NCBI RefSeq assembly: GCF_003585935.1
Contig: NZ_NRJG01000028.1
Coordinates: 1 to 60,653, forward strand
Length of the DNA: 60,653 nucleotides
Reading direction: 5' to 3'
From: Psittacicella hinzii
GTDB taxonomy: Bacteria; Pseudomonadota; Gammaproteobacteria; Enterobacterales; Psittacicellaceae
The position numbers and the translations under genes are program-made. Each line of letters begins with the position of its first letter. Position 1 is the first letter of the stretch. The notes beneath the pieces were generated by a model, which was given only the letters and a program-made list of their open reading frames with translations, was not told the origin of the DNA and ran no database searches. Positions 8,180 through 32,067 of this stretch are shown piece by piece.

Positions 8180-8230
8180 AAGGTTGATTAATGATTATCA
8201 GCTAAAAAAACTCTAGTTAAGTTTAAAAAG

Positions 8231-8968
8231 TTAAGGTGCAACAAGGTTTACACCTTGAGCAAGGAGTAGTTGCGCTAAAGCAAAATACAACCCTTGCTGT
8301 TGTAAATCTTTATCACTGTAAGTAGTAAAAGTAAATCCTAAACGCAAGTTAGCTGCACGACTTTGGTTATGCACTAAGAGCATGCATTGCTGAAAAAAGT
8401 TATAGCGCGAGGTTTGACTTGCCATTAACTTTTTTTGTAAACTTGCTTGATGTAAATGCCAATAGTGTCCAGTAAAGATTAGGGTTTGAAAGTAATCGCG
8501 ATTGAACTGTAATAAGTAAGGTAAATACAGTAAAGGCACGCACTTTTTGTCCCAATGAGAACTGTGGTTCTCTTGTTTAGCAAAAACTAAGTAAGTAGCA
8601 CAATTTAACATTAAATCATAAGCCACTTGGCTAGCCATAGATAAGTAGCGATTATTGCGAATATCGTAATCTAAAGTCGCAGCATAGGCTTTAGCTAAAT
8701 CGGCAACGGCCTGCTCATAAGTAAGAGCAGGTATAGCTTGCCATTTAGTTAAAAGCTCTTGGCTAGTTTTGATTGTGTTGCTTACTACTTGGGGATGATT
8801 AGTTTCTAAGTCGTTGAGAAGTTGGGCTATTTGCTGACTTGGTTTAAGTTGAGCTGTAGTTTTCGCTTGCAATACTTGACTACTAATGCCTAAACCTAAG
8901 CTCCCAAGTACTACTAGGTTTAGACAAGCGCGCAAGCTGTATAAAAATTTAAAGTAGAACTGTTGCAT
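8231..8968 (-). CDS. Exported two-cysteine paralogue C
   Basis: This is a 245-residue protein with a signal peptide (probable cleavage after LQA, residue 35) and no recognised domain. It is a clear family member: RNNRYLS motif, Cys123 and Cys143 (19 residues apart, with HWDKK just before the second), LGFTFTTYS near residue 215 and a Leu-rich end. HWDKKC here closely resembles QWDKFC in paralogue D. It is followed after 51 bases by paralogue B on the same strand. The function is unknown; the signal peptide and cysteine pair point to the periplasm. Confidence 0.8.
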   Translation of the reverse strand: MQQFYFKFLYSLRACLNLVVLGSLGLGISSQVLQAKTTAQLKPSQQIAQLLNDLETNHPQVVSNTIKTSQELLTKWQAIPALTYEQAVADLAKAYAATLDYDIRNNRYLSMASQVAYDLMLNCATYLVFAKQENHSSHWDKKCVPLLYLPYLLQFNRDYFQTLIFTGHYWHLHQASLQKKLMASQTSRYNFFQQCMLLVHNQSRAANLRLGFTFTTYSDKDLQQQGLYFALAQLLLAQGVNLVAP

Positions 8969-9066
8969 ATTAATGAGCTTAAGTGAAAATTAAAGCATAA
9001 GTTTATTATGACTATTATATTAGACCTGTGAATAATTTTTTTAAAAAATGATAATAGAGGAAAACG

Positions 9067-9126
9067 ATGTTCACAAGAGAATCTCTAGTAAATATTTTCA
9101 ATTTTTACCTATTTAAAGGTGAATAA
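9067..9126 (+). CDS. Possible 19-codon leader peptide
   Basis: A short frame (MFTRESLVNIFNFYLFKGE) is preceded by AGAGGAAAAC, one of the best ribosome binding sites in this region, 6-7 bases before the ATG. It ends 41 bases before the earliest possible start of the next gene, in a different frame. It could be a leader peptide or the decayed beginning of the S24-like gene. Evidence is limited to the binding site. Confidence 0.3.
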   Translation: MFTRESLVNIFNFYLFKGE

Positions 9127-9167
9127 GCTTTAACTTGGTATAAAGAAGACACCAATATAAGTAAAGC

Positions 9168-9836
9168 TTGCTTATTACTTCTTTGTGGTGGAAATCAGAG
9201 CAAGTGCACGTAAATTTTAATCAGGCTGAGCGTACAAGCGTAGATTTCTTTAATCAAATTTGTTTATTCTTAGGTTTTCGTAGTAAAAACTTTAAGCTTC
9301 TTTTCTCTTACTGCCAAAATAAAGGTTGGGTTAGTGAACCAACAATTTTTGTTGAGGAGTTTAAAGCTCTTGTAAATGCTTGGGAAGAAGTTCCAGATTA
9401 TGAAGAAGGAAAAGAAATTACCTTAGAACAAGCTCTATATGAAGATCTAGCTGAGAATTATATTACAGCACTATTCCTTGAGCCAGAATACATCCCATTA
9501 CATTCGCTCGAAGAATTATATATTGGTGATGATAAGTTTAGCCCTGTGTTAGTAGAGGGTGATATAGTTGCTGTTTTAAGAAAAGATAAATTTTGCGGTA
9601 ATGGTTTATACCTAATTCGCAAAGTAGATGCTGTTCAAGAAAATCCTGTATTAGTTGAATTAGCTGAACAAGCTGAGAGCAAGAATTTCAAAGTATTATA
9701 TGCAACTAATCCGGAGCTAAACAATAGCACTCTTAATAGAGATGATTTTGAGATTATCTATTGTATTGCTGTAGCAACGAGAAGAGGTGCACCTGTAGTG
9801 TTACCTAGTCAGATGCCTGAGCTAAACAATAATTAA
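9168..9836 (+). CDS. S24/LexA-fold repressor-like protein lacking the catalytic dyad
   Basis: The C-terminal half (about residues 115-210) reads like the C-terminal domain of phage repressors and LexA: FSPVLVEGDIVAVLR, GNGLYLIRKVD, VLYATNPELNNSTLNRDDFEIIYCIAVATRR. The Ser of the usual D-S-M-x-P-T motif is not in place and the Lys of V-K-R is missing, so self-cleavage is unlikely. No helix-turn-helix is recognisable in the first 100 residues. An in-frame stop lies two codons upstream of the TTG at 9168; alternatives are TTG 9183 and GTG 9204, and none has a good ribosome binding site. It could be a non-cleavable regulator, a repurposed domain, or a gene whose 5' end has decayed. It stands opposite to its exported neighbours. 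Confidence 0.6.
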   Translation: MLITSLWWKSEQVHVNFNQAERTSVDFFNQICLFLGFRSKNFKLLFSYCQNKGWVSEPTIFVEEFKALVNAWEEVPDYEEGKEITLEQALYEDLAENYITALFLEPEYIPLHSLEELYIGDDKFSPVLVEGDIVAVLRKDKFCGNGLYLIRKVDAVQENPVLVELAEQAESKNFKVLYATNPELNNSTLNRDDFEIIYCIAVATRRGAPVVLPSQMPELNNN

Positions 9837-9877
9837 GAGTTCAAAATAAGCCCAAATGATTAAGCATTAGCTTTATC

Positions 9878-9916
9878 AAATAGTAATACCCAGCCGATGG
9901 CTGGGTATTACTATTT
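9878..9916. terminator. Bidirectional intrinsic terminator
   Basis: A perfect 18-bp stem (9878-9895 with 9899-9916) with loop GAT and A/T-rich flanks on both sides lies between a plus-strand and a minus-strand gene that converge. It can serve both. Confidence 0.8.
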
Positions 9917-10060
9917 ATAAAATTGAAAACTGTTGGTCTGACCTGTGCGGTTAAGATAATACGTTAAGGTAAGAGTAAGCGTTATGATCTTAATGGCTCT
10001 TGATGATCCCTACGAATAATCTTTATTTACAGATGCGCTCTTAAATCACTGCAAATCGGT

Positions 10061-10792
10061 TTAAGTACGAGGATCTTTAATTACGGTCGTAGGTAAATTA
10101 CGACTTGCTAAGTAACGATTAATCTGTCTGATTAAGCGAATTCCAGAAGTAGTATTAGCCGCAGGTAAAGCACTATAGGTAAAACCTAAATCATTAACCG
10201 TTGATTGGTTCTTATGCACGCGCGTCATTACGCTTTGATAAAAGCGTAAAGTAGAGAGTTCTCCATTACCAAGGCGATTTTGCTTTTGTAATGAGGAGTA
10301 ACTTAAAAACTGGGTATAAACCAGTAATGATTTAAACTGATTTAACGAAGTAAAGCTAGCGCTAATGGTTTTAAATGGCGCGCAGAATTTATCCCATTGT
10401 GGGAAGTTGCGACTATTGCGCGCACTGCGTCCGGCAGGTAAGCTATTGCAAGTTTGCGCAAAGGTGTATACCGCATCTGCGGCAGTATTTGAATAACGAT
10501 TACGAGCAATAATTGGGTGTAACTCGTTATTGAGCATACTACTTAAACTAAAGAAGTAGTGCTGCATGCTAAGCGTGGTTTGATAAACCAGCACTTGCTC
10601 AAACTTAGTTAGAGCGTTATGGGTATTTGTGAGTAGCGTTTTATGAGCTTGATAAGCATGTTGTAAACGATACTCAACATTAGCGCGACTATTATAAGCA
10701 GCTTGCGCGATACTGCTAGTCATAACTAGCCAACTACAGCTAGCAAGACTAAGAGAAAAAACTTTAGACCAAAGCGAGAAAAACCTAAACAT
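10061..10792 (-). CDS. Exported two-cysteine paralogue D
   Basis: This is a 243-residue exported protein with the signal peptide ending near AQA (residues 29-31). It is one of the best-conserved members of the local family: RNRYSNTAADAVYTFAQTC, Cys115 and Cys137 (21 residues apart, QWDKF before the second), then NDLGFTYSALP about 75 residues later. The mature protein is basic and probably all helical. No catalytic signature is recognised. It is flanked by a convergent terminator on one side and a small membrane ORF on the other. The function is unknown. Confidence 0.8.
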   Translation of the reverse strand: MFRFFSLWSKVFSLSLASCSWLVMTSSIAQAAYNSRANVEYRLQHAYQAHKTLLTNTHNALTKFEQVLVYQTTLSMQHYFFSLSSMLNNELHPIIARNRYSNTAADAVYTFAQTCNSLPAGRSARNSRNFPQWDKFCAPFKTISASFTSLNQFKSLLVYTQFLSYSSLQKQNRLGNGELSTLRFYQSVMTRVHKNQSTVNDLGFTYSALPAANTTSGIRLIRQINRYLASRNLPTTVIKDPRT

Positions 10793-11016
10793 TGACCTTA
10801 CTCATGAAAATTGAACAAACTGCTAGCTATTATACAACTAGCAAGCTTGCGTAAAAGTAGATCTTAGGGATTTTATTCTTGAGAGCAAGAAATTGCTAGG
10901 ACTTGCTATCAATTTATAGATCGAGACTAGACTTTAACTATCAGTAAGCGTTAAGTCTGAAACTTTGAACAGTTTGTAGATCCAGTCTGAGGTTGTATAA
11001 ATATACAAGGCTAAGC

Positions 11017-11259
11017 TTAACAAGGAGGCTTGTTATTAGGTAAGGCATTTTGACTTGGAGCTACTTGTTCTTTATCACTTGAAGCAAACTTCACTTGTGC
11101 CGGTTGAGGACAAGTAGTTGCTGTATACTTTTGCATAAAGTAGTGACTTGAACTATGACTCATATGCAATAAAGTTAAGGCTAAATAGAGAGCAATAATG
11201 GGCTTAACGACAACCGCACTATATCTCCATATACCACGAAGAATTTTAGAAAATGACAT
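11017..11259 (-). CDS. Small single-span membrane protein, hypothetical
   Basis: The chosen ATG gives 80 residues; a TTG two codons upstream is also open. A basic start is followed by one hydrophobic segment (VVVKPIIALYLALTLLH, about residues 15-35), then a polar tail with two cysteines and a PPC end. No ribosome binding site is clear. It lies between paralogues D and E. It may be a real small inner-membrane protein or a chance frame. Confidence 0.4.
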   Translation of the reverse strand: MSFSKILRGIWRYSAVVVKPIIALYLALTLLHMSHSSSHYFMQKYTATTCPQPAQVKFASSDKEQVAPSQNALPNNKPPC

Positions 11260-11265
11260 AAACAA

Positions 11266-11594
11266 TTTTAGTGCTAAGGGCTTAAGACATATAGCTTAAC
11301 CTCAAGGGTTAATCTCTACGATTTAGCACCTCTAGAAAACTTAGTTACTGTTCTAAGTAGTAAGTAAAAAAGTACTACCTAGCTACTTAATTAGACAGAC
11401 TAAAATGCTAAAAGTTTTATGCCATTATCAAAAAAAATAGTAAGCAAAAAGTGGATTTAGCTATAGAAATATAGCTATGGATAAAAGTCCGAGTGCGTAA
11501 CAAATAAACAGGATCTGTGCAATCTACAATGCAACATACCCCTGTAGCTTTTAGTGCCTTAGCACTTAAAGTTACAGGGGTAAGTTATTAAAAA
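11266..11594. other. Spacer upstream of the small ORF
   Basis: AT-rich, non-coding. It contains only the hairpin at 11537-11582 next to the end of paralogue E. Confidence 0.4.
11537..11582 (-). terminator. Hairpin just after paralogue E
   Basis: TACCCCTGTA pairs with TACAGGGGTA, and the interior contains AGTGC-CTTA-GCACT, giving a long nested hairpin 13 bases beyond the stop codon. A T-run is lacking. Confidence 0.55.
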
Positions 11595-12416
11595 TTATTT
11601 TTTAGTTTGCTTTGTCGCCGGAGTAGGGTTCTCAAGAACAACTTTAAAACCTAGATGTGAAACATATTTGTTTAGAACTTCAAGGTTTTGTTTCATTTCT
11701 GGAGACTCTAAAGCTGGTAAAGGTTCAAAGCGGAATGCTAAAGTTTTCTCAAAATTAGCAATATCACCTTTACTTAAGCTTTCTAAACCAGTTTTAATTA
11801 GCGTTTGTGCTTCTTTTTCACTTGGAGTTAGCTCTTTAGCAGGTAGTTGCTCTAAAGCATAATAAGCTGTCATGTAAAGAGCAGACTCAAACATTTGTAA
11901 GCTTTGACCGTAAGCCATAGCTACAGGAATAAAGAAGTGACAAGCACCAAACCAATCAGCTTTAACGTCTTCTTTTTTCACTTGGTCGTGAATCATAGTA
12001 TTGGCACAAGCGAAAACGAAGTTATACAGCGGATAAGTATTTGGACCGTTTTGGAATTTACCATTTACTACACTAAAGCCAGTAGTATCTAACATGCCCG
12101 CAGCTGAATAAGCCACAAAGTCATCGATCATAATGCTTTTAGTTTTACTGTTAGCTACATCGTTATAGAAGTCGTATAGATTATGCGCTACTTCATCATA
12201 CATTTGCGAATTTTTAGCATATAAATCCATTGCCACTTTACGATAGTCACCATCGGCTGGGATCGTTGGACCATTACGTACTTCATTTACTGGAAGTAAA
12301 GTAAGGTCATAAGGGGTAGCAGCATTAGCCATAGGTGCGAACATGGTAGTTGCACTTAAAGCCATTAAGCTTGCTGAAAGGAATTTAATTTTTTGCGTTA
12401 ATGAGCGAAAAATCAT
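11595..12416 (-). CDS. Exported two-cysteine paralogue E
   Basis: This is a 273-residue protein with a signal peptide cleaved near ANA (residue 32). Family landmarks: GKFQNGP in place of the usual N-x-Y-[ST]-N-P, Cys137 and Cys159 (21 residues apart, ADWFGA before the second), PVAMAY after the pair as in other members, and LAFRFEPLP near residue 230. The C-terminal Thr/Lys-rich tail is unique. Mature protein helices are likely. The function is unknown; no enzyme motif is visible. Confidence 0.8.
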   Translation of the reverse strand: MIFRSLTQKIKFLSASLMALSATTMFAPMANAATPYDLTLLPVNEVRNGPTIPADGDYRKVAMDLYAKNSQMYDEVAHNLYDFYNDVANSKTKSIMIDDFVAYSAAGMLDTTGFSVVNGKFQNGPNTYPLYNFVFACANTMIHDQVKKEDVKADWFGACHFFIPVAMAYGQSLQMFESALYMTAYYALEQLPAKELTPSEKEAQTLIKTGLESLSKGDIANFEKTLAFRFEPLPALESPEMKQNLEVLNKYVSHLGFKVVLENPTPATKQTKK

Positions 12417-12694
12417 GGGGAGAATCCTGTAATAGAGATAAAAGTTCTTCTAAGAAAACGGGAGTAAGTAATAAATAAACGGAGTTTATTGTTTACTTTC
12501 TTAGAGGTTAAATCATGACGTAACTATCGTAAACTTAAACTAACTTGTTACAGACAGCTGTTATAAATATAGAGCTAAAGCGACAAATATCAAGCTAAAA
12601 CTAAGGTAGTCTATATTTAGTTATAGCCTATATCTAGTTATAGTTGATATGGTTGCTCGCAAGTACAAGCTTAAGAGTCTGCTAAGACTTCAAC

Positions 12695-12874
12695 AAAGCT
12701 ATCTATAAAGCCAGCATCAAAGCCAGCAACAAAGCTTGAAACAGAGCCCTCAATATAGCTTGAAACAAAGCTAGCAACAAAGCCCTCACTAAAGCTAGCA
12801 GCAAGGCTTGCAACAAGACCAGAAATATATCCTGAAATATAGCCTAAAATAGAGCCTGAAGCCAAGCCTGCAAC
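12695..12874. repeat. Fifteen degenerate 12-bp tandem repeats
   Basis: The block divides exactly into 15 units of 12 bases resembling AAAGCCAGCAAC or ATAGCTTGAAAC. On the minus strand one frame is open throughout (12671-12865, TTG start) and would encode a tetrapeptide repeat of [Ser/Gly]-[Phe/Tyr]-x-x (GYIS, GFVA, SFVS, SYIE and so on). There is no ATG start and no clear ribosome binding site, so I treat it as a repeat array first and a coding frame second. Confidence 0.7.
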
Positions 12875-12997
12875 TTAGTTAGTACCCTAAGTAAGTTATT
12901 GGTGTTAAGTCTGATTAGGATGAAAGAGTAGATGATGAGATCACTAATTTGTTCTACTCTTAACTCTAGGAGTTTAGGTAAGCTTTAATACTCTTTC

Positions 12998-13765
12998 CTA
13001 GTCTTTAAGCTTTAAGCGGTAGTACTCATCAAAATAACTATGTAAACTTGCAGCACACACCACTAAATTAGGTGTTTTTTCTGGTTCAAAGTCTAAATAT
13101 TCTTGGCTTAATTCTGGATCTTTGTAGATGATATCTACAACTTTCTTGAAGTAAGCAAGGTTACGACTTTTTACGCTTGCCAGTTGTGGTTTGGCAGTAT
13201 TCTGTTGGGCTAGTAAGCGTTGATAGGTCGCTAAAAATACATCTGTATGCAAGGAAGAGATATGATTGTCATATACCATAGCTAAAGGAGCTAAAGGTTT
13301 ACATACAGGCCACCAACGATCAAGACTTTCTTGATCAGGAGCATGTTGCATTACTGCCAAGCGTAATTGGTTACACAATATCGCTACTTGGTACAGTTGT
13401 GTAACTTGGGGATTACTGTATTGGTTTCTGGCAATAGTATATTCAGTATTAGTTGCCAGTACTTGATTGCTCTGAGAAATTAAACTTTTAACCGTTAACG
13501 GGTTTTTACGATTAGTCGCCAGTTTATTGTAGAGTTTGTTCAACTCTGCACTGGTACGATAGATCAAATCTGCGGTTTGGGGATTAACCATTAATGAGTT
13601 CAACTCAGTATAGATTTGACTTTGTTTTTGGGTTGCAATAGGTAAAGCTTGGGTTGCACTACTCCATAAAAACAATGAGCTCAATGTTGCGCGAGTAAGT
13701 AGTGTACGTGGGATCAAGAAATTACCTATAACGTTTGACTTAAACATATGGCAAGTCAACCTCAT
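12998..13765 (-). CDS. Exported two-cysteine paralogue F
   Basis: This 255-residue family member has landmarks ARNQYSNPQVTQLYQVAILC, Cys131 and Cys155 (23 residues apart, RWWPV before the second), KPLAPLAMVYDNHISSLHTDVF after the pair, and YLDFEPEKTP near residue 224. The signal peptide probably starts at the internal Met7 (ATG at 13747), giving a basic start, a hydrophobic stretch and cleavage after TQA. The upstream ATG at 13765 has no better binding site. The function is unknown. It shares the NxYSNP and YxxxxxxC pattern most closely with paralogues D and G. Confidence 0.8.
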   Translation of the reverse strand: MRLTCHMFKSNVIGNFLIPRTLLTRATLSSLFLWSSATQALPIATQKQSQIYTELNSLMVNPQTADLIYRTSAELNKLYNKLATNRKNPLTVKSLISQSNQVLATNTEYTIARNQYSNPQVTQLYQVAILCNQLRLAVMQHAPDQESLDRWWPVCKPLAPLAMVYDNHISSLHTDVFLATYQRLLAQQNTAKPQLASVKSRNLAYFKKVVDIIYKDPELSQEYLDFEPEKTPNLVVCAASLHSYFDEYYRLKLKD

Positions 13766-14298
13766 ATAGGGGAAAAGATAGATTCGAGGAAAGATCTGTG
13801 TACTAATAATATGCCATCTAGTACTGAAGAATAAGAGGAGTTATATGACTGTGCTTAACTTTGTCACAGAGAACATATAAACATAGACCTTTCTCTCTAT
13901 ATTTTACGTGATGTTGGGCATATTTAGCATTGCCAAAGGTAAAAAAGCCGCTTTACTCGGACTTTTTAAAGATTTTTACCTGAAAAATAGAGCTGCTCTT
14001 GCTTTTATCTGTCAAAAGTAAGTGAGAATACAGCAGCAAAATATCATGCTTTGCCTTGTGGCAAATCTGCCTAGCAGGGAAGAATATCCGAGCTAATCTC
14101 GGATATTCTACAAATCATAATTACAAATGACAAGCTTAGCTTGTAAGACCTGTTCATAAGCATAGTCCAAGCCAATAGGAGTCATCCCAGCTCGTAAACA
14201 TTAGTCAAGCTCATGAGTATGATCTAAGCTTGTAAGCATAAGCTAAGCTCATAAATATGATCTAAGCTCGTAAGCATAAGCTAAGCTCATAATCCTAC
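13766..14298. other. Spacer with imperfect 38-bp repeats
   Basis: Non-coding. Apart from the repeat at 14207-14293, no open frame, promoter or RNA was recognised. Confidence 0.4.
14207..14293. repeat. 38-bp direct repeat, about 2.3 copies
   Basis: Unit 1 (14207-14244) and unit 2 (14245-14282) read AAGCTCAT...TATGATCTAAGCT.GTAAGCATAAGCT with a few differences. A third partial unit (14283-14293) reaches almost to the stop codon of paralogue G. Sub-repeats of CTAAGCT-GTAAGC occur within each unit. Confidence 0.7.
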
Positions 14299-15105
14299 TT
14301 ACTTTGGTTGTTGATTAGTGTGGTAATCGTGAATTAGTTTTAAACGTAAACCGTTAAAGTACTTATCAAGAGCATTGTATTGCGCTTGATTAACGCTTCC
14401 TTGCTTATAGGTAAAGTCTAAATCACGTTGTGCCTCAGCCAGATCAGCTTTTATTATACGGTACAAGTGCATAAAATTACGGATGTAATCTTGCGAAGGA
14501 GCTGGAGCATTAGTCTCTTGGCGTTGTTTAAGAGTTACGTATTGTACGGTAAATAAACTTGTACGATAAGTAGCTAATTCTTTATAAATTAGTGCTACAG
14601 GGGCAAGATAGCCACAGTTACGTGCTAAATGCTCTGGCATTTTAAATTTGCTTACTTTACTTGCGCTATTAGTGTAGTAAAGGCAAGTTTGTGCAAACTC
14701 ATAAACAAGATTAGCTTGAGGATTAGTGTATTTACCAGCGGCAATTTGCGGTTGGGTGAACAGATTAATGATATTCCCCGAATCATAGATAAATTTCATT
14801 AGACTTACATTCGCAGCTCCTGATGTGAGGTAACTACGATAAAGTAGACCTAAGTAATCGACGATTTGGGTAATGCTTTGTTTGCTATCTTGTTGTAAGA
14901 GTTGCTCTAAGCGTTGTTGATAGTCACTTGGAGTTAAAAGTTGTTGCGGTAATAAGCTTGGAGATTCTACTTGAGGTACGGTTGGTTGTACTTCTGGAGT
15001 AGAGTCTGTACTTTGAGCAAAAGTTAAACTTGCGGTAAGGGCTAAGCTTGAAGCTAAGGCAAGTTTAAGGGTTAGGCGACTAAGGTTTGCTGTAAATAAC
15101 GCCAT
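14299..15105 (-). CDS. Exported two-cysteine paralogue G
   Basis: This 268-residue protein has a signal peptide ending at TFA (residue 30), then a Pro/Ser/Gln-rich linker to about residue 55. Family landmarks: AAGKYTNPQANLVYEFAQTC, Cys141 and Cys164 (22 residues apart), GYLAPVALIYKELATYRTSLF after the pair, and RDLDFTYKQGS near residue 233. It is the best reference member for the family because every shared motif is present. The function is unknown. It is first in order of transcription direction among the minus-strand series but is separated from paralogue F by more than 500 bases, so it is probably transcribed on its own. Confidence 0.8.
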   Translation of the reverse strand: MALFTANLSRLTLKLALASSLALTASLTFAQSTDSTPEVQPTVPQVESPSLLPQQLLTPSDYQQRLEQLLQQDSKQSITQIVDYLGLLYRSYLTSGAANVSLMKFIYDSGNIINLFTQPQIAAGKYTNPQANLVYEFAQTCLYYTNSASKVSKFKMPEHLARNCGYLAPVALIYKELATYRTSLFTVQYVTLKQRQETNAPAPSQDYIRNFMHLYRIIKADLAEAQRDLDFTYKQGSVNQAQYNALDKYFNGLRLKLIHDYHTNQQPK

Positions 15106-20468: not shown

Positions 20469-21551
20469 TTACGCATTACTACGAATGGTAAAGTTTTCTG
20501 GATCATTTTCCAGTTCAGCTTGTGCTTGTTCTTCACTCAGAGTTGCGTTGGCATTGTTAGCACTGCTGGCATTATGAGCTGCAGTTGAGTTTTGCACCGG
20601 AGCTGAAGTTTGGGCGTTAGTTGCAGTTTGTGTTGGAGCAGAAGCTGCATTAGCTTGTGCTGCTAACTCTTGTTTGCGCGCTAATTGTGCAAGATGTAAA
20701 GCACGAATTTGACGAATGGTATTCGAGTTAATTTTGCCTGTGTACACAAAACTTGCCGGACCAGTCATAAACAGAGGTTCTCCCTCAACGCCAGACCATT
20801 GAATCTCTAAATCACCACCTAAAGTGTGAACCGTAATTGGAGTATTAGGTTTTAATTTACCTTGACGAATTCCAACAGCTACCGCACCACAGCAGCCTGA
20901 ACCACAAGCTTGGGTTTCACCAGCACCACGTTCCCACACGCGAACTTTAATTTCAGTAGGAGAAACGATTTCCATAAATGGCACATTCGTACGTTCAGGG
21001 AAACGTTCGTGATTTTCAATTAATGGACCAATACCTGTTACATCGGCTGTATTTACGTTATCCACCGTAACTACGCAGTGAGGATTACCCATACTCACCA
21101 CTCCACAAAGTTGTACTCCTTTCGCCGTAGTAATCATATAAAAGTGCTCTGGAGTATTAGCTTTAAAAGGAACTTTTTTCGGAGTGAAATTCGGAGCACC
21201 CATGTTCACTTTAACCGTATTGTGGTTAATACTTAGGATCATGCGTCCGTTATTAGTGGTAACGTAGATATCGTTTTTATTTGTTAACCCTTGTAAGGTT
21301 ACATATAGCGCAAAACAACGCGCACCATTACCGCATTGATTTACTTCTGAACCATCAGCATTAAAAATGCGATAGTGAAAATCTGTGTCAGGATCGTATG
21401 GTGGTTCAATAAGTAATAGTTGGTCAAAGCCAATACCACGATGACGATCAGCTAAAGCTTGAATAGTTTTAGGATTGAGGAACACTTTTTGCGTAACTGA
21501 ATCAATTACCATAAAGTCGTTACCCAACGCGTGCATTTTCGCAAAATGCAT
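20469..21551 (-). CDS. dapF: Diaminopimelate epimerase with C-terminal extension
   Basis: DapF converts LL- to meso-diaminopimelate for lysine and peptidoglycan. Both catalytic cysteines are present: Cys73 in NQCGNGARC and Cys216 in [10 protein letters not shown]. The start [17 protein letters not shown] is typical, and AGGGAG precedes the ATG. The enzyme core ends near residue 280. A further ~80 residues rich in Ala, Asn, Thr and Ser (about 280-360), ending in an acidic segment, are not part of the usual 274-residue enzyme and look disordered. It is followed by fic. Confidence 0.96.
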
Positions 21552-21942: not shown

Positions 21943-24900
21943 TTACTCATCTCCCTTAAAACTCGTAAGAATAGAACTACGATCACCAAGTTTTTCATTG
22001 AGTAAATCACTTGCTTGGTGAATACGAGCTTTATCACCTTTTGTCAAACCTGCATTAAGTTTATGAATAATCCGTTGTTGGCGTAAGCGCTTTTTATGTC
22101 CTACGACATCGGTAAACATATTGGCTTGGAACTCTGTGTTGTAAGGGATGATGTTAATAGCCCGTACAGTTAAAGCTCGTACTGGTAATGACCAATGGTA
22201 GTTGGCATTAAACAGCTCGGTCGCTTTAGCCGCTAGATCTTTAGCGATCAAGGTTGGAAGTTCCATTTGCGCTTGCCAACTATGATCTTTAAAAGATGTA
22301 TCACGGATCGAAATTTGTACACCGTAGGCTAAACAGTTTTCACGATGTAGCTTCTCTGAAACTTCAACCGCTAATTCAAGAATAAAGCGTTTGATTTCAG
22401 CTGGATCATGCGCATCGGTTGATAAGGTTGTGCCACGTCCGACTGATTTAATGCGGTCGCGGTTTTTACCATCTTTTACGGAGACACAATCTAAGCCATT
22501 AGCATCTAGCCAGAGATTTAAGCCGTGATGTCCTAGGGCATCGTACATTTTTTGGCGCGGCGTATTCGCTAGAGCACCAATTGTCCCTATACCTAGGCGA
22601 TCGAGCTTAATTAGAGTTTTACGTCCTACCCCAATTAGTTCTGATACTGCACGCGGCCAAACGATCTCTTGCCAGCGATGCGGAGGGATACACGTAACCG
22701 CGTCTGGTTTTTTCATATCTGAACCTAATTTCGCTAGAACTTTATTAAAGCTTACCCCTACCGAAATAGTAATCCCTAATTCTCGCTTAATATGTTCACG
22801 AATTTGATTAGCTAGGGCTTCTGGAGATTCATATTGCGCTACTACTTCGGTTACGTCTAACCATGCTTCATCAATACTATAAAGCTCAACATGAGGTGTA
22901 TATTGCGCATAGATTTCTGATGCCATATTCGAGTAACGACGATAATCATCAAAGTTCGGTGGCACTAAAATTAAGTTGGGACATTTTTTTAGTGCTACGA
23001 CTGTTGGTTCTCCGGTAGTAATGCCATATTCTTTAGCAGCATAAGAACGAGCGAGAATAACTCCTTTGCGCTGTTCAGAATCTCCGGCAACGGCAATGGC
23101 TTTGCCTTGCAGTTGCGGATTTTCACGGGCAGCAATGGAAGCAAAACAGTTATTCATATCACAATGTAAAATTACACGTTCATATGTTGGGTGCAACTTA
23201 TCTAAATCGATTTTCTCCATGGTCTCGATATTGGTATCGCGAATATAGAGATCTCGTTTTTGCGCTAAAGCTTGGTAGACATTTTCTTCGATCTTATCAA
23301 CATGCATGATCTGACAAAACTCAGGCACTGATAAGTAAGCTAACTCTTGTAAAGCTTGGCTTGAGAACTCACAATTAAAGCCTGCATAATAGTGCAGTTC
23401 ATTGCGTACTTTATGTAAGCTATTATCGTCGTGATAATAAACTTGGTTTAAGACAGCAATAATTTCGGCATGGAAGTTATGTACTTCTTTTTGCCAAGCA
23501 TAGTAGTAAGCTAAGTATTGTTCTGGAGTCATAAATACGTTCTGCGGTTCAGTATAACGTCCAAAATCCAGACCATATTCTTGTTTGATATATTGCTGGT
23601 AGAACGTCATGCCTTCGGCACATTGGTTTTTACTTTCTTGGAAACGATTAAAGCTCACTCCTTGACGAATGCTATGAGCAATATCTTCAGGAATGCTTGG
23701 GAGATAGAAGTTTGGTTGACTATTACCATGCCATAATTCTCCTGTGAGCGGATTAGTAGCACTCACGCCAAGAATATGGTATCCCGCATGACGACTTGAT
23801 CCCTGATAACGTGAGTTAGGGAAGTAGGTTGCCATATAAGGAATTACCCCATAACTATTACGACGAAACGTGCGTTTTAATAGCGCCGGAAAAGCATAGA
23901 TTTGCTGACGATTACGATAAGCACCATAGGCAGTAGCTAAGTTTTGCGTGAGTTGAGTATAGAATTGCTTATCTAACTCAGTCGTAAATGTAAGCGTAGC
24001 TTGATAGTTTAAATTAGGACTAATGCCACTATAGAGTAAGAACTCTTGTTGTGCTTGACTAATTACTTTAGCATTAACAGCAGGATTAAGTTGGGTTAAT
24101 ACTTCTTGCTCTGTGTTCAGTGGAGCAACAGGTGTAGCCATGGGATCAAGCATCATATCCATATCCACCGTAAACTTACCCGTAGCAGCTCGACTGAAAA
24201 GCGCAGTGAGCTTATTAGGAGTAGAGAAGAACTCTTGAATTGCAACTTGTCCGACCTGCTCTTGTGCTTGTAAAGCACGTTGCATTTGTTGGTTTTGCTC
24301 AGGTTTCAGTTGCGGAGCTGAGTCTGCATTACCGAGCAAGCCCCAACGGCAGTTTTGCACTACAGGCAGGACTAATTTAAGTTCTGTAAGTTCTGGAGCT
24401 TGTTGCTTAATCCCAAACCTCTCAGCTGTCACTACTAATTTATAGCTTTCTGCTGGAGAGGCTTGCTGCTTAGTAGCTAATTCATGCCATACATTATGCG
24501 CTTGGCTGCGCATTTCTGGTGACAGAATATGCAATGGCGTACGCGTAATTTCTTGCCCTAAAGCCGCGTACATCACTTGTTGACGATAGTCCTTACTAGC
24601 CGCAAACTTCTGTACGTGCGTAATATCTAAAGTATTAAACAGTTCATTGGTCGCAGCCGCAGAGACTACACTTAGATTAAATGCATTAGCACGACTATAA
24701 GCTTGGGAGAATTTTTGTGCTGCTACTGGATTAAGCGTTAAGCATAGTTGGGCTAAACGTTGCGCATGTTCTTTACGGTAACGCGAGTAGTGCGTTGGCA
24801 GCGGTAAAGTATGTGCTTGTTCATAATCTTGTAAGCGTGCATATTCTTCTAACGGTAACATGAGATCAGGAAGTAGCACTAAGCCATTGTAGTATAGGCT

Positions 24901-27900
24901 GGCATAAGTACCATATCCCTCTAACTGGTGCTCGTTTGCTTGCATTTCATCTAAGTACACAAGGCTTTGAACTTTAGTGATGTAGTTGTTCGCTGCATCA
25001 TAATAAGCTTGAGCTCTTTGTTTTATATGAGCTTGCGCTTGTGGATTATATTTTGCGCGTTTTAGTAAGGTGTCTACAGGATTATTCCATGCAAAATGTT
25101 CAGGTTCATGATGTAAAAACGAATAACGATTTTCTTTATGGTAATTACTAAAGTATTTACGATAGTAATGTTCAAGATAATCAGCATCCGGAATTACTTC
25201 GAGCTGATTTGCAGCTTGTAGATCTCCTGTTTTACTAACTGCTTTTACTAGAATATTAGTAACTGCGGTTGATAATAAACTTGGGTTATCTTCATTACCT
25301 GTACTTAGATGCACTTGTCCTAAATCTTGTTGTAAAGCTACTAAAGATTGTTTGTCTTGTGCTGTACGTTGTAACTGTGGATTAACCTTGTGTTCACGTC
25401 CTAAATAGTTATTGCTGCTTTTTACTTCTTGTTGTCCAGCTTTGGCTTGAGCCAGAGCTTGACTCCAACCTTTAGCTACTTCGTCTTCGGTAGTTAAAAT
25501 CGCAGCTTGGTGCTTAGGTTGTGAGGTAAGAGGGAAGTCCGCAGTAAAGGTTTGTGGTTTACGTTGTCTTGGCTCTTTATGCTTATATGCAGCAAGTTTA
25601 GTTTGCTGCATATAGTACAACTCTTTAGCTAACTCAAAGTAATCTCCGTAACTTTGCTCAGAGATTTGCATATATTGTACTAGAGGATTATTAGCTTTTT
25701 CTGGGCTAGGTTGAGAAGTTAGTGTACTTTGAACGGTTTGTAAACCTTGAGCCGCTTGTGTACTTTGAGTAGCTTGTGTAACTTGAACGGCTTGTGTACT
25801 TTGAGCACCTTGTGCAACTTGCGCTGCTTGAGTAACTTGCATTTGCGAAGCAGGGTTAACTTGCGCAAGAGGAGTAAATCTACTACTAGCAAGACTGTTA
25901 AGCGAGCCACTAGTAGCACTATTAGAGGCATTATTGGTAACGACACTGTTAGTAGCAACACTACTAGAAGTAAAACTATTAGCAACACTGTTAGCAACAC
26001 TGTTAACAAAATTACCAGTAGCGCCTTGGGTATCTCCTTGAGAAGCTAAACCTTGGCTTTGAGCATAACTAAGATTACGCTCATGCACTAGTTGGTTTTG
26101 GGCATGCATTTGCTCTTGGAGAGCTTGTGCCATCTTACCTGGAGTTATAGGTGCTTTAGAGAGCGCTTGTTCTTGGTTCTCTTCTGCACTATCAGGGTTC
26201 TTACTTAAAGCCTCAATAAAGCGTTGACGCATCTGTCTTGCTTCTAACTTATCGCGTTGCTTTTTCGTTTGATGGGCATTAAGACCTGGTAAAGTTAGGC
26301 TTTTAGTATCTAACTGTTCATGCATGGCTAGATGTAAAGCATCTTGCTCTTGTTGGGCAATATCAGTTAGTACTATACGCATGGTTTCTTTTTGCGTTGC
26401 CGCAAAAGCAGAATCTACTGCCTTGCGGCTTCTTTTTTGCGTTAAGTAAGCGCGTTGCTTTTGTTTTTGTAAGCGACGGGCTAGATCATCATCTTCTCTA
26501 GTATCAAGACGAAAACGCTCATCGGTTGCGTCCGCGGCAAAGTTAATATGCTGCAGATCGTGGATCGGCAGTTTATTTAGATTATTTTTGTGCCAAATAT
26601 AAATAAAATTCTCATTAAACGGTAAGAATCCTGATTGTTGATCAATATATACCGGTAAAGGAGTTTTACTAAACTGCTGTCCAGAAGTAATTTGTGGTAC
26701 TTCTTGATGTAAAGCTTGTCCTAATTGTTCGTATAGATGTAAGTAGTTTAAGTAACCGGTATAGCGTAATTCTCCACCACTTAAAGCAACATAATCTGGG
26801 ATGCTTGTGCTGGTTTGTTCTTGTGCTTGAGAATTATCTAGTGTTTGCTCTTGTGCTTTATCTTGATTACTATCTTGTACTTGACTTTGTGCTTGAGATA
26901 GATCTTGTGGCTCGTTTTGATCTTGTGACTTGGCTTGATCTTTAGTTAAAGCTTGAGCTTGTGTATTTTGTGCAGTTTGGCTATTTTGCATAGCTTGCGC
27001 ATTTTGTACACTTTGCTCATAAGCTAAAACTGTACGCAGCTTAAACAGATTAACCCAACGTGCTTTACTATGGAGACGTGGGTCAATAGTCATTACTGCT
27101 ACTGGTAAGTTTTTATTAATTTCAGGATCTAATTCTCCCAGAATAATATGCTGCGCATATTGTCCACAAAACTCCCAGTCAATTAGGTATTTATCTAAAG
27201 GTGCTTGATAGTAACTATCAATAACCTTTTGTTGATAAGTAAAGTCTTTACCTAACCAGTGTTGCAAACCTTCACTGGTTTTCGTTTCAATAGTTGAGAA
27301 TTGATGTTGGTGGTTACGTTTATCTAGAGCATTTAATGCTGTCCAGATATCCGTTTGATACCAAGTTACTTTGTCAAGTTTAGGAGTTGGATAGGCAATA
27401 CCTAGTTTACTTGCTAGTTGCGGAATAATCTGATAGTAGTAAAAACTACTATTAGCTTGCGCTTTAGCGTTGTACAGTAAACCAAAACGATGGAATAACT
27501 CTTGTTGTTGGTAAGAGTATTCTTTTTTCATTAAAGGTAACTGATCAAGACCAACGCTTACGCGTGCACTACCACCATGACTTAATTGTTGTTTACGAAT
27601 AATAGTTGTTAAGTAGTCATAAGCTAAGTCATAACGCCATTGGTTCTCAAAGTAAGCTAAGCGATCTTTAACTTCGTTGTTATCTACTTTAAAAGTATTA
27701 TAACCATCACCTTTTTTAACAATATGCTCATTAAAAATTGGCATGTAATCAGCATAGCTTTGTTGTTCTGGGCGATTAGATGGAATATCTTCTAAACGTA
27801 AAGGTCCTGAGCTGCGGCGAATATTAGCTAAAGCTTGTGCTTCGGCTTGTGCTTTTTGTTCTTGGCGTAACAGGGTTTGATGGTACTGCTCAAGATAATC

Positions 27901-29535
27901 ATTACTTAGCGCATAAGGTACAAGACGAGGCGCATGATCAAGCGTAGCTTGAGCATGAGACGAGATTTTACTACTTAGAGCTTCTGGACTTAATTGCGGT
28001 TGTGAGAGCTTATCAACACTACGCAGCTTTAAGTCATCAATTAAAAGTTGACGCATCTCAGGCGTCATATTTAAGCGTTCAAAGTACTCTGGATCATCAA
28101 AGTGCACAAACGGATCAACAATCCCATCAGCTAGCCCTTCAAGTTCTGGGAAACTAGCGTTAGCTAGTTCTTGACTCATGGCATAGTATTTTTCTTCAAG
28201 TGGGACTTGAGGATTAGTTACTAACCCAATTAAAGGTTGTAATACCGGTAACTCAAACAGATCCTCAATTTTAGGATCAGACAGTTGAGTTTGCACATGT
28301 TGGAGAGCTACTGCAAGTTGAGCTTGAGCTTTAGCAACTAGTTGGAGTTGATAAATAAACGTTGCTAATTGCTGTTGTAAAGTTAATAGTTGTTCTTGAG
28401 CCTGTGGATTAATATCCTTGGTTTCTTGCGCTCGTTGAATTGCCTGTTGTAGGTGACTTTGTAATGCTTGTTGTACTTTAAGATAGTGAGGATCTTGACT
28501 AGCTTGGGTATTACCTATACGTTCTTGTTGTTCAAGTTTGTCTTGTAAACTTAAAGCTTGAGTAAGAAGATCTCCAACTTGCGCATAAGCAGTATACTGC
28601 GGTTTTAATTGTAGGATCTGTGCTTGTACTTGGCTTAATTGCTGACTAAGGAACTTCTCTACTTGCTGCGCACGTGTTTGTTGTTGCTCTAAAGCATATT
28701 GCTTGTAGTGTAAAAGTTGTAAGTGCATTTCCACTTTTTGTATTATTGCTTGCGGGCATCCTTGGTTACCCCCATTAGCGATAATAGGTGCAAAAGCTTG
28801 TAAAGCTAACATTAAGCGTACGTTATAGGTAATACGTTGACGATAATGTGAATCTATATCGTCCATGCGCGCTTGTTTAAAATCAGCAGGAACTTTAGCT
28901 TGGTTTAGGCGTAAGTGTAAGAAATTGCGCATTTTAGGAATGGCAATTTGCATACTGTGAGTAGCTAGACGTAACTCTTTTAGTCTTTCTTGAATAGCTT
29001 GATGCCCAATACGCGTAAACTGCGCAGGAGTAACCCGTACAGTTTGTTCGATAACCGGAGCAGGTGGTCCAACTTCGATCGATTGCCAGTAAGCTTGAAG
29101 TAGTTCTTGCGCTTGTTGCCAAAAATAACTAAACAGCTCTTTATATTGTTTTACTGTAATTTGATTCGCTTTTAAATTTAAAAGAGCTAAGAGTTGTTTT
29201 TTCTCGGTGTTTTGCGCTTGGCTACGCATTTGCGTTTGTTGTTCTTGCTGAAAAGCTGCAAGCTTTTCCATGGCTAAAGAATATTTTTTCTGCGCTGGTA
29301 AAAAACGTGAATGAAAAATATCTTCTTTATACGCAAAAGTCGCAAGATTCTCTTTAGTCGCAGGTTTAAGAGTTTCGACTAAAGGAGTAACTATAGCAAT
29401 AGCGGCTTCAAGTCCCCAAGCTTTTAGTTGGGCACTAGTGTAGCGTGGAGTTTGGCGGGTTTTAGAGGTGCTAATTTCTGTATTACCACTCGTGTTTTGA
29501 GCGCGAGTAGGAGTATTTTTACTATCTTGGCTCAT
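21943..29535 (-). CDS. dinB: Giant protein: ~2100-residue unknown region fused to a Y-family DNA polymerase
   Basis: One frame of 2530 codons is open without a stop. About residues 2115-2490 are a Y-family (DinB/UmuC-type) translesion polymerase: VILHCDMNNCFASI with Asp2126 and the steric-gate Phe, VAGDSEQRKGVILARSYAAKEYGI, the catalytic YSIDEAWLDV (Asp2222, Glu2223), VGVSFNKVLAKLGSDMKKPD, the helix-hairpin-helix ELIGVGRKTLIKLDRLGI, and a little-finger domain. The metal-binding acids are intact, so activity is likely. Nothing upstream matches a family I know. It has a Gln-rich helical segment (about residues 80-470), a mixed region with many Tyr/Trp, Gln/Asn/Ser low-complexity linkers at about 850-910 and 1120-1270 (VTQ/AAQ/STQ repeats), and another folded-looking region (1400-2100). 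Ordinary DinB has about 350 residues. There is no clear ribosome binding site. The polymerase block resembles the versions with AGD and SIDE motifs common outside Enterobacteria. Confidence 0.9.
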   Translation of the reverse strand: MSQDSKNTPTRAQNTSGNTEISTSKTRQTPRYTSAQLKAWGLEAAIAIVTPLVETLKPATKENLATFAYKEDIFHSRFLPAQKKYSLAMEKLAAFQQEQQTQMRSQAQNTEKKQLLALLNLKANQITVKQYKELFSYFWQQAQELLQAYWQSIEVGPPAPVIEQTVRVTPAQFTRIGHQAIQERLKELRLATHSMQIAIPKMRNFLHLRLNQAKVPADFKQARMDDIDSHYRQRITYNVRLMLALQAFAPIIANGGNQGCPQAIIQKVEMHLQLLHYKQYALEQQQTRAQQVEKFLSQQLSQVQAQILQLKPQYTAYAQVGDLLTQALSLQDKLEQQERIGNTQASQDPHYLKVQQALQSHLQQAIQRAQETKDINPQAQEQLLTLQQQLATFIYQLQLVAKAQAQLAVALQHVQTQLSDPKIEDLFELPVLQPLIGLVTNPQVPLEEKYYAMSQELANASFPELEGLADGIVDPFVHFDDPEYFERLNMTPEMRQLLIDDLKLRSVDKLSQPQLSPEALSSKISSHAQATLDHAPRLVPYALSNDYLEQYHQTLLRQEQKAQAEAQALANIRRSSGPLRLEDIPSNRPEQQSYADYMPIFNEHIVKKGDGYNTFKVDNNEVKDRLAYFENQWRYDLAYDYLTTIIRKQQLSHGGSARVSVGLDQLPLMKKEYSYQQQELFHRFGLLYNAKAQANSSFYYYQIIPQLASKLGIAYPTPKLDKVTWYQTDIWTALNALDKRNHQHQFSTIETKTSEGLQHWLGKDFTYQQKVIDSYYQAPLDKYLIDWEFCGQYAQHIILGELDPEINKNLPVAVMTIDPRLHSKARWVNLFKLRTVLAYEQSVQNAQAMQNSQTAQNTQAQALTKDQAKSQDQNEPQDLSQAQSQVQDSNQDKAQEQTLDNSQAQEQTSTSIPDYVALSGGELRYTGYLNYLHLYEQLGQALHQEVPQITSGQQFSKTPLPVYIDQQSGFLPFNENFIYIWHKNNLNKLPIHDLQHINFAADATDERFRLDTREDDDLARRLQKQKQRAYLTQKRSRKAVDSAFAATQKETMRIVLTDIAQQEQDALHLAMHEQLDTKSLTLPGLNAHQTKKQRDKLEARQMRQRFIEALSKNPDSAEENQEQALSKAPITPGKMAQALQEQMHAQNQLVHERNLSYAQSQGLASQGDTQGATGNFVNSVANSVANSFTSSSVATNSVVTNNASNSATSGSLNSLASSRFTPLAQVNPASQMQVTQAAQVAQGAQSTQAVQVTQATQSTQAAQGLQTVQSTLTSQPSPEKANNPLVQYMQISEQSYGDYFELAKELYYMQQTKLAAYKHKEPRQRKPQTFTADFPLTSQPKHQAAILTTEDEVAKGWSQALAQAKAGQQEVKSSNNYLGREHKVNPQLQRTAQDKQSLVALQQDLGQVHLSTGNEDNPSLLSTAVTNILVKAVSKTGDLQAANQLEVIPDADYLEHYYRKYFSNYHKENRYSFLHHEPEHFAWNNPVDTLLKRAKYNPQAQAHIKQRAQAYYDAANNYITKVQSLVYLDEMQANEHQLEGYGTYASLYYNGLVLLPDLMLPLEEYARLQDYEQAHTLPLPTHYSRYRKEHAQRLAQLCLTLNPVAAQKFSQAYSRANAFNLSVVSAAATNELFNTLDITHVQKFAASKDYRQQVMYAALGQEITRTPLHILSPEMRSQAHNVWHELATKQQASPAESYKLVVTAERFGIKQQAPELTELKLVLPVVQNCRWGLLGNADSAPQLKPEQNQQMQRALQAQEQVGQVAIQEFFSTPNKLTALFSRAATGKFTVDMDMMLDPMATPVAPLNTEQEVLTQLNPAVNAKVISQAQQEFLLYSGISPNLNYQATLTFTTELDKQFYTQLTQNLATAYGAYRNRQQIYAFPALLKRTFRRNSYGVIPYMATYFPNSRYQGSSRHAGYHILGVSATNPLTGELWHGNSQPNFYLPSIPEDIAHSIRQGVSFNRFQESKNQCAEGMTFYQQYIKQEYGLDFGRYTEPQNVFMTPEQYLAYYYAWQKEVHNFHAEIIAVLNQVYYHDDNSLHKVRNELHYYAGFNCEFSSQALQELAYLSVPEFCQIMHVDKIEENVYQALAQKRDLYIRDTNIETMEKIDLDKLHPTYERVILHCDMNNCFASIAARENPQLQGKAIAVAGDSEQRKGVILARSYAAKEYGITTGEPTVVALKKCPNLILVPPNFDDYRRYSNMASEIYAQYTPHVELYSIDEAWLDVTEVVAQYESPEALANQIREHIKRELGITISVGVSFNKVLAKLGSDMKKPDAVTCIPPHRWQEIVWPRAVSELIGVGRKTLIKLDRLGIGTIGALANTPRQKMYDALGHHGLNLWLDANGLDCVSVKDGKNRDRIKSVGRGTTLSTDAHDPAEIKRFILELAVEVSEKLHRENCLAYGVQISIRDTSFKDHSWQAQMELPTLIAKDLAAKATELFNANYHWSLPVRALTVRAINIIPYNTEFQANMFTDVVGHKKRLRQQRIIHKLNAGLTKGDKARIHQASDLLNEKLGDRSSILTSFKGDE

Positions 29536-30426
29536 AGGGTTATTGTTTCCGTATTCTTAATCTTGTTCGTTTTTGTTGTAACGAGAGTTACGAAAAAATT
29601 AGCAAAAAAGTAATTTAAATTTTATTTAAAATAAAAAATTAGAAAAAATTAAAAATAATTCTAAAAAAAATATTTCGCTATGCGAGATGGGAAGGAGTAT
29701 GTAAGAGATTAACTTAGGCTCGACCTTCTTTCCCTTTATATACTCCCCATACTCCAGTCTTTCTCCCTATACTTCTGTAGAAAAAGAGATTCTTCGTCCT
29801 TTTTGAATAGAAGATTTAAGGTTAGTGAGAAGAGGATTGTAGAGATGTTCGAGAAAATATTTTTTAAGAATAATTATTTTTATTTAAATATATTATAGCT
29901 TAAAAAGAATTAAATGAATTTAACTAAGTAATAAGGGTAATTGCGTGGTGGTCGGTAAAGCTTTGATAAATATGTGTAATTTGTGTAAGAGTTGGCTATT
30001 GATTATTTTTATTAATTTTTTTTAATAAATTATTAAAAATAAATATAAAAATAGAAAAAGAGTAATGGAGTAGGAATAGAACAGCGGGAGTAGAACAAGA
30101 AATTAGGCAGAAATGGTAATGAATAGTAACAGAATAAGACTGAATAAGTACTGAAGTAGAGCTGAAGAGCTAAAGAATAGAAGGGATAGAACGGGAAAAG
30201 CTGGAAAAACTACCTGCAAGACACAAGAAATCCCTAGAGAACTAACTTCTCTAGGGATGAATAAGGTAATAAATTGAGTGTATGTAAGGGAGTAAGTAAA
30301 AATAACAGAGCTTAATTTAATCTGATCAGCATGTAATTAGGTATTCGTGTGAACAGACACACAGGTCATCTGATATTCGTGTAAGCGGATAAACTGAAAG
30401 GTAAACAACCTTATTTTATTCTTAGC
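29536..30426. other. 890-base AT-rich gene-free region
   Basis: This is very AT-rich DNA upstream of the giant gene, with poly-A/T tracts near 29600-29660 and 29990-30060. No open frame, RNA or repeat array was recognised apart from the terminator at 30230-30258. Confidence 0.4.
30230..30258 (-). terminator. Intrinsic terminator downstream of yigZ
   Basis: ATCCCTAGAGA pairs with TCTCTAGGGAT around a 7-base loop. The minus strand then reads TTTCTTG. It is about 170 bases past the yigZ stop. Confidence 0.55.
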
Positions 30427-31038: not shown

Positions 31039-31118
31039 ATAATCTGCGTATTTTCCAAAATTTTAGAGTTTCCTATTATAGCATAAGGCTAAGAATGGTT
31101 GGATTAGGGAAGCTAGAT

Positions 31119-31328
31119 TGTCTCTTATCCCTTATCTCTCATCTCTCATCTCTTATCCCTTATCCCTTGTCTCTTGTCCCTTGTCTCTTATCTCTTGTCT
31201 CTTATCTCTTGTCCCTTGTCTCTTGTCTCTTGTCCCTTGTCTCTTGTCTCTTGTCTCTTGTCTCTTGTCTCTTGTCTCTTGTCTCTTGTCTCTTGTCTCT
31301 TGTCTCTTGTCTATTGTCTATTGTCTAT
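31119..31328. repeat. Heptanucleotide tandem array, about 30 units
   Basis: Units are CTCTTGT and variants (CTCTTAT, CCCTTAT, CTCTCAT, CCCTTGT, CTATTGT). Ten consecutive units (31241-31310) are identical. All three plus-strand frames are open across it because the unit lacks stops, so the apparent proteins there are artefacts. The array lies 80 bases upstream of yigZ and is a candidate length-variable locus. Confidence 0.9.
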
Positions 31329-31804
31329 TATTTTTGTCTCGGTCTCTATTCTTTACGTAAAGACATGTCTATTCCCTTACTCTTAGTACCTATTTTTATT
31401 TAACATTAACTAAAACTGACAAATGATAGATAAGAGAAATTAGGGAATTTTTTCATTTTTCCTCTTGGTTTTTTATACTTAAGTCGCTATATTTAAGGTA
31501 AAATATACATTAAAAAATTCGCTCACAAATTTTGCTCATCTTAAACGTGGCATAAGCCATTGTTTTATCGCAGCAAAAGTTTGCAACGTGACTTTTTCTT
31601 CCCGTTTTTTGATCTTCCTTTCTAGTTAAAGGAAGCAGCCCCTTACTTAATTTAATTTCTCGCAAGGGGCTAAAATTTTGTGTATGTTTACCGTACAATT
31701 TCGTTATTCTTTTTGCATTTGTCATGTTTTTCTCTATTTTGCATTTGTTATTGCTTGTTTCTTGTACAAGGATGAGTAATAAGTAAACTAAGATAAATTT
31801 TTAA
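31329..31804. other. Spacer between the two arrays, with two hairpins and a doubtful small ORF
   Basis: TTCCTTT-CTAGTT-AAAGGAA (about 31615-31634) and AGCCCCTT to AAGGGGCT (31637-31671) form adjacent hairpins. A 71-codon minus-strand frame (31510-31725, basic, no known domain) has GAG 7 bases before its ATG, but its AGA/CGA-rich codon use differs from neighbours. I regard it as unproven. Confidence 0.3.
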
Positions 31805-32000
31805 GAATAAATTTTTAAGAATAAATCTTTGAGAATAAATCTTTGAGAATAAATCTTTGAGAATAAATCTTTGAGAATAAATCTTTGAGAATAAATCTTT
31901 GAGAATAAATCTTTGAGAATAAATCTTTGAGAATAAATCTTTGAGAATAAATCTTTGAGAATAAATCTTTGAGAATAAATCTGTAAGAATTAATTTTTAA
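31805..32000. repeat. 14-bp tandem array upstream of tolB, 14 units
   Basis: The unit GAATAAATCTTTGA occurs 11 times without change (31819-31972) and is flanked by degenerate copies on both sides. The array ends 67 bases before the tolB ATG, so it occupies the promoter region. There is no spacer sequence between units, which excludes CRISPR. Confidence 0.92.
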
Positions 32001-32067
32001 GAAATTGACGTAAATGCACAGTTCCCCCTCTTCTTCATTACCATTTTTTAACCATACGACTTAATCT

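Follow-up and report, generated by a model that had tools for sequence, protein, structure and literature searches.

Translesion polymerases are normally compact and governed largely through short sliding-clamp-binding peptides, and the locus described here raises the question of why one of them should form the end of a 2530-residue protein. The gene occupies positions 21943..29535 of the 60,653-nucleotide stretch of DNA that was analysed (the window), part of a 2.48 Mb Psittacicella assembly in 215 contigs (order Pasteurellales). It lies on the minus strand, left unnamed in the original prediction, with an ATG start codon at 29535 and a stop codon ending at 21943, and encodes a product of about 287 kDa. 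Reading the interval on the plus strand was ruled out, as that strand is full of stops. The proposed uninterrupted frame of 2530 codons was therefore confirmed, and the predicted residue numbers proved exact.

Homologues with the same fusion were sought in a pattern-and-tblastn scan of a species-genome collection and in a search of 59 related genomes. Three same-genus genomes, corresponding to Psittacicella melopsittaci, P. gerlachiana and P. hinzii, each disclosed a single uninterrupted frame, located at 7851-12896 of L002 (1682 aa), 2026-8043 of L003 (2006 aa) and, in the P. hinzii relative, 6632-13558 of L004 (2309 aa). All four Psittacicella thus carry the fusion, which the original prediction had proposed to look for in related genomes, with total lengths of 1682, 2006, 2309 and 2530 aa. 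Because it recurs uninterrupted in three other species, we excluded a sequencing error, a mis-assembly or an artefactual join. Y-family frames in other Pseudomonadota were almost all 350-505 codons long; one 747-codon frame was seen in genome G032, from a different family. A literature search that reached few subscription papers retrieved no Y-family fusion of this type and nothing on Psittacicella genes or the enlargement of their proteins.

The gene neighbourhood is kept as far as the contigs extend, with pal, tolB and yigZ on one side and dapF and rnc on the other. In the three relatives, a protein of 416-448 residues with an N-terminal membrane segment is encoded immediately before the polymerase gene; the window holds no comparable frame at 29536-30426. 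The P. hinzii relative carries a likely DNA methyltransferase and an adjoining gene between the polymerase gene and dapF (L004:13995-18011), judged by eye to be a possible restriction-modification pair. Between yigZ and tolB, the window contains two intergenic tandem arrays, one of about 30 copies of 7-bp units (31118-31347) and one of 15 copies of a 14-bp unit, ATAAATCTTTGAGA (31793-32003).

The polymerase domain spans residues 2118-2505 (22021..23184, minus strand), as defined by Pfam, NCBIfam, PDB and fold matches and by a phylogenetic tree. Both the palm/fingers domain (Pfam IMS, 1.2e-44, residues 2125-2273) and the little-finger domain (IMS_C, 1.2e-17, residues 2363-2466) scored above their cut-offs, sequence and fold matched solved Pol IV, and full-length Pol IV models covered residues 2116-2496. 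The polymerase had been predicted to be intact. This holds for the catalytic residues Asp2126, Asp2222 and Glu2223 and for the steric gate, Phe2131, all kept in the alignment, and less clearly for the helix-hairpin-helix, whose model (IMS_HHH) reached 18.4 bits against a cut-off of 24.4, the region being aligned within the full-length Pol IV models. We infer that the enzyme would work like other Pol IV proteins, using two-metal catalysis, a steric gate and a little finger. The usual Pol IV length of about 350-420 residues, a common but not a catalytic trait, is exceeded here (2530 aa) and in the relatives (1682-2309 aa); by catalytic criteria the gene is nonetheless a Pol IV, in which the architecture is novel and the polymerase is of a known type.

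Comparison with other Y-family proteins narrowed the assignment. UmuC (Pol V) has the Y-family core in common with the Psittacicella polymerase and was rejected because its model scored only 89 bits against a cut-off of 431; ImuB, an inactive paralogue, was rejected because the catalytic residues are kept. The fold, catalytic residues and steric gate are those of E. coli Pol IV, itself a gammaproteobacterial DinB, yet proteins of that group measure about 350-370 aa, unlike the fusion, and fall on a separate branch of the tree.

That tree, a maximum-likelihood reconstruction of 36 polymerases including proteobacterial DinB from the same order, placed the four Psittacicella domains in one clade (support 100/100), joined to Pol IV of Tissierellia, Monoglobus, Oscillospiraceae and Subdoligranulum (99/98). 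The larger Bacillota set that includes Psittacicella was separated from every sampled proteobacterial DinB, same order included, at 100/99, and this split, with the grouping among Clostridia, ruled out an orthologue of gammaproteobacterial DinB. In the species-genome collection the closest match outside the genus was 44% identical. Clostridia-type Pol IV proteins (NCBIfam PRK03103 / PRK01810 models) are 42-44% identical to the Psittacicella polymerase over ~360-375 residues and have the identical ILHxDMNN motif and C-terminal layout; in contrast to the fusion, they are stand-alone proteins of about 410 aa with a canonical clamp peptide and no N-terminal extension. Several are encoded on plasmids, e.g., the Monoglobus and Oscillospiraceae copies. 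Judged from these alignments and the tree, the polymerase is evidently a horizontally acquired Clostridia-type Pol IV. Each of the four Psittacicella genomes yielded one IMS match, the sole Y-family gene found in assemblies that are 87-92% complete. In the simplest history, an ancestral Psittacicella would have taken up a stand-alone Clostridia-type Pol IV in place of its own gammaproteobacterial DinB, and the incoming enzyme would have become the C-terminal end of a scaffold protein specific to the genus, all before the species diverged; the order in which gain, loss and fusion took place is conjectural.

What precedes the polymerase is harder to classify. Residues 1-2117 had no match in Pfam, NCBIfam, PHROGs, PADLOC or PDB sequences, which bears out the ~2100 unrecognised residues of the original prediction. 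Alignment of the four proteins, together with composition and modelling, supported the alternation that it had described, with Gln-rich helical, low-complexity and conserved blocks. The N-terminal domain (ND, residues 101-510; 28006..29235, minus strand) is 34-41% identical between species and contains 17% Gln, with a core at residues 401-500 above 50% identity. It is followed by a weakly conserved middle region (residues 601-950; 26686..27735, minus strand) with one sharp conserved patch at residues 906-950, and then by a variable linker (residues 951-1560; 24856..26685, minus strand), mostly 4-21% identical and largely absent from P. melopsittaci. The first 470 residues of the linker are rich in Gln, Ala, Ser, Thr and Asn, and Tandem Repeats Finder located 18-bp tandem repeats in it that encode Gln/Ala-rich hexapeptides (25711..25839, minus strand). 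A further weakly conserved block, seen by blastp and alignment, covers residues 1561-1690 (24466..24855, minus strand). The junction domain (JD, residues 1851-2117; 23185..23985, minus strand) adjoins the polymerase and is conserved in the genus at 41-46% identity, its core at residues 2001-2050 reaching about 61%, equal to the polymerase.

The linker has thus lost almost all similarity between species, in contrast to ND and JD, which indicates selection on these two domains. The four-protein alignment in this way supports the idea that more than one region under constraint is linked to the polymerase, and the constraint on ND and JD beside a near-free linker argues for a putative scaffold or tether. 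The main rival to this reading is that an ordinary Pol IV fused to a neighbouring frame and that the front part then grew by repeat slippage and drift as tolerated ballast, leaving the polymerase to function normally, which the 18-bp repeats and the spread in total length from 1682 to 2530 aa would fit. We regard this passive growth as unlikely, though a serious contender; it is disfavoured because ballast would not retain two domains in all four species, and ND and JD are 34-46% identical (50-61% in their cores) against 4-13% through most of the linker.

AlphaFold models were obtained for residues 1-970 and 1550-2530, with mean pLDDT of 45 and 46, the 4-5 available sequences being the limiting factor. 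The polymerase was modelled well (mostly 70-88 pLDDT) and matched solved Pol IV. Residues 1-970 were predicted, with low to moderate confidence, to be entirely helical and to contain long helices; this model and the Gln content of ND suggest that ND is helical and probably a coiled coil. A Foldseek search with the model returned no significant match, the non-significant ones being mostly long-helix proteins. JD was mostly below 50 pLDDT, too uncertain for interpretation. Structure prediction, which had been proposed for the N-terminal region, thus succeeded for the polymerase and gave no interpretable fold for ND or JD.

Relatives of ND and JD outside the genus were not found in the order (248 genomes for each domain) or among phages, plasmids and viral contigs. 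Four ND matches at E 0.004-0.009 covered short stretches and were taken as chance. Non-catalytic regions around the core manage recruitment in Rev1 and Pol kappa, eukaryotic members of the Y family. The Psittacicella fusion resembles these in plan only: its extension greatly exceeds theirs in length, has no sequence relationship to them and contains neither a BRCT nor a ubiquitin-binding domain nor any other known one.

The original prediction had also raised the possibility that the front part supplies a novel activity. Such an enzyme, acting for example on DNA or nucleotides and cooperating with the polymerase, could account for the JD core matching the polymerase in conservation and for the numerous invariant Tyr, Trp, His, Glu and Asn residues of JD. 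The front part, however, yielded no family, PDB or fold match and no recognisable catalytic motif or signature, and the JD model is not interpretable; we consider an enzymatic front part very improbable.

A separate question is whether the polymerase arises, additionally or exclusively, as its own product, from an internal start or by cleavage, leaving the front part as an independent protein. Sequence comparison revealed that Met2077 (23305..23307, minus strand) is the sole ATG common to all four species between the start of JD and the catalytic Asp, and initiation there would yield a normal-sized polymerase of 454 residues. None of the four species has a clear ribosome-binding site upstream of it; start sites within the window are generally weak, and a second, short product is for this reason possible. 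JD, however, is conserved across Met2077, and the frame is still fused in every species. We therefore hold two products to be distinctly unlikely and rank this reading, like the enzymatic one, as less likely than a scaffold or passive growth.

Regulation also appears to differ from that of E. coli DinB, which is LexA-controlled. The four Psittacicella polymerase genes have no LexA box within 400 bases upstream, and no LexA above the family cut-off was present in the four genomes, three of which gave weak partial matches. The latter result suggests that the canonical SOS repressor is absent from these genomes.

How the polymerase reaches its template is the point at which the front part may matter most. 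Recruitment of E. coli Pol IV depends largely on its clamp-binding peptide, which at the Pol IV C-terminus has the canonical form QLxLF / QLxLxL. Every E. coli polymerase, Pol I possibly excepted, has a clamp-binding motif needed for biological activity (PMC4564189), and clamp-independent recruitment of Pol IV has been discussed for one type of damage, nitrofurazone (PMC5735139). Alignment with Clostridial Pol IV placed residues 2470-2474 (22114..22128, minus strand), which read QANMF, at the position of this peptide. Clostridial relatives have QLQFF, QIDMF, QLDIF or QLSLL there, and the other Psittacicella have QGTLF (P. hinzii), TGNIF (P. melopsittaci) and PATWY (P. gerlachiana). A plausible clamp motif is thus kept in two of the four, the window and the P. 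hinzii relative, and the Gln is lost in P. melopsittaci and P. gerlachiana. The window's QANMF looks usable, and recruitment in this species may be ordinary. Clamp-like peptides also occur in the front part, namely QQELF at 677 in the window and QVSLL at 376 in the P. hinzii relative, and are not conserved. Erosion of the C-terminal peptide fits a transfer of recruitment to the front part and does not prove it.

Taken together, we see about an even chance that the product is a single-chain Pol IV that relies in part on a genus-specific scaffold for its recruitment. In such a protein, the front part would most likely position and restrain the polymerase. Composition and the weak structural models hint that the helical, probably coiled-coil ND could mediate self-association or partner binding; the Gln/Ala-rich stretches would act as flexible spacers, and JD as a conserved domain beside the polymerase. 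We infer that the scaffold has at least partly taken over recruitment from the clamp peptide. A sole translesion polymerase joined to a conserved front of ~1,260-2,100 residues would offer a natural test of recruitment by peptide and clamp against recruitment by a tethered scaffold.

The fusion does not stand alone. A survey of lengths in 436 kb of the window genome and 1.6 Mb of a related-order genome (G226) gave 105 reciprocal-best pairs with a median length ratio of 1.03; the highest ratios belonged to the polymerase (7.1x), a glycosyltransferase protein (5.1x), DnaG (2.6x), MutL (1.7x) and RNase E (1.65x). In family searches, open frames in all four Psittacicella exceeded those of seven other families for DnaG (1281-1503 against 577-611 codons), and they were likewise longer than the comparison frames for MutL (792-1089 against 575-677), MutS (971-1097 against 855-900) and PolA (1040-1093 against 917-954); these families were partly picked after the fact, the MutL contig was fetched on purpose, and no enrichment is claimed. 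The family search did not detect the MutL C-terminal domain in Psittacicella MutL. Extensions also occur in DapF, RNase E and a small number of other proteins, and RecG-like and RecN-like proteins, recognised by eye, are of normal size. The polymerase fusion is thus the extreme of a lineage pattern in which DnaG, MutL, MutS and PolA are enlarged in all four genomes.

The enlargement of DnaG, MutL, MutS, PolA, RNase E and DapF, by segments that are mutually unrelated, speaks in favour of passive growth. The added segments of DnaG and MutL contain 11-12% Gln, compared with 5% in the cores. The polymerase extension showed no significant similarity to the added segments of DnaG, MutL, MutS or RNase E, and common ancestry with them was rejected on this ground. 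Beyond the scaffold proposed for the polymerase, a broader possibility is that replication and repair were rebuilt on lineage-specific scaffolds, with an alternative protein network, perhaps a condensate, holding enzymes at the fork. Under this proposal, which we advance as speculative and rather unlikely, the polymerase, DnaG, MutL, MutS and PolA would have gained large segments while contact modules eroded, namely the Pol IV clamp peptide in two species, the detectable MutL C-terminal domain and the normal C-terminal region of DnaG. The parallel enlargement of DnaG, MutL, MutS and PolA does suggest a lineage-wide reorganisation of replication and repair proteins, and it could be studied in Psittacicella, a small bird-associated genus with genomes of about 2.3 Mb.

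Individual proteins of the window's own genome illustrate the range of extensions. The DnaG primase of 1498 aa (L110:3587-8083, contig C30, minus strand) keeps the zinc ribbon, DNAG_N and Toprim, followed by about 1100 residues made up of a Gln-rich linker and an unrecognised region in which no similarity to the usual C-terminal part of DnaG was detected. MutL measures 1085 aa, with no MutL C-terminal domain detected (L123:4344-7601), and MutS has a low-complexity tail of 241 residues at its N-terminus and lacks an obvious clamp peptide (L075:5754-9023). The glycosyltransferase protein, of 1310 residues (L122:2176-6108, minus strand), has a glycosyltransferase family 25 domain at residues 824-933 and is 5.1 times as long as its match in the comparison genome. 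Beside the polymerase gene, DapF (window 20469-21551) reaches 360 aa through an 86-residue Ala/Asn/Gln-rich C-terminal tail, compared with 304 aa in the P. hinzii relative and 274 aa in the comparison genome.

Two further observations concern other parts of the genome. A single 631-residue frame (L055:3678-5573, minus strand) joins DUF986 to a type I phosphomannose isomerase and is a possible second gene fusion. At 7334-15105, the window encodes a series of proteins, each of 243-281 residues, that look alike, appear to be exported and have in common a short motif around a conserved Cys; they are probably a local paralogous family.
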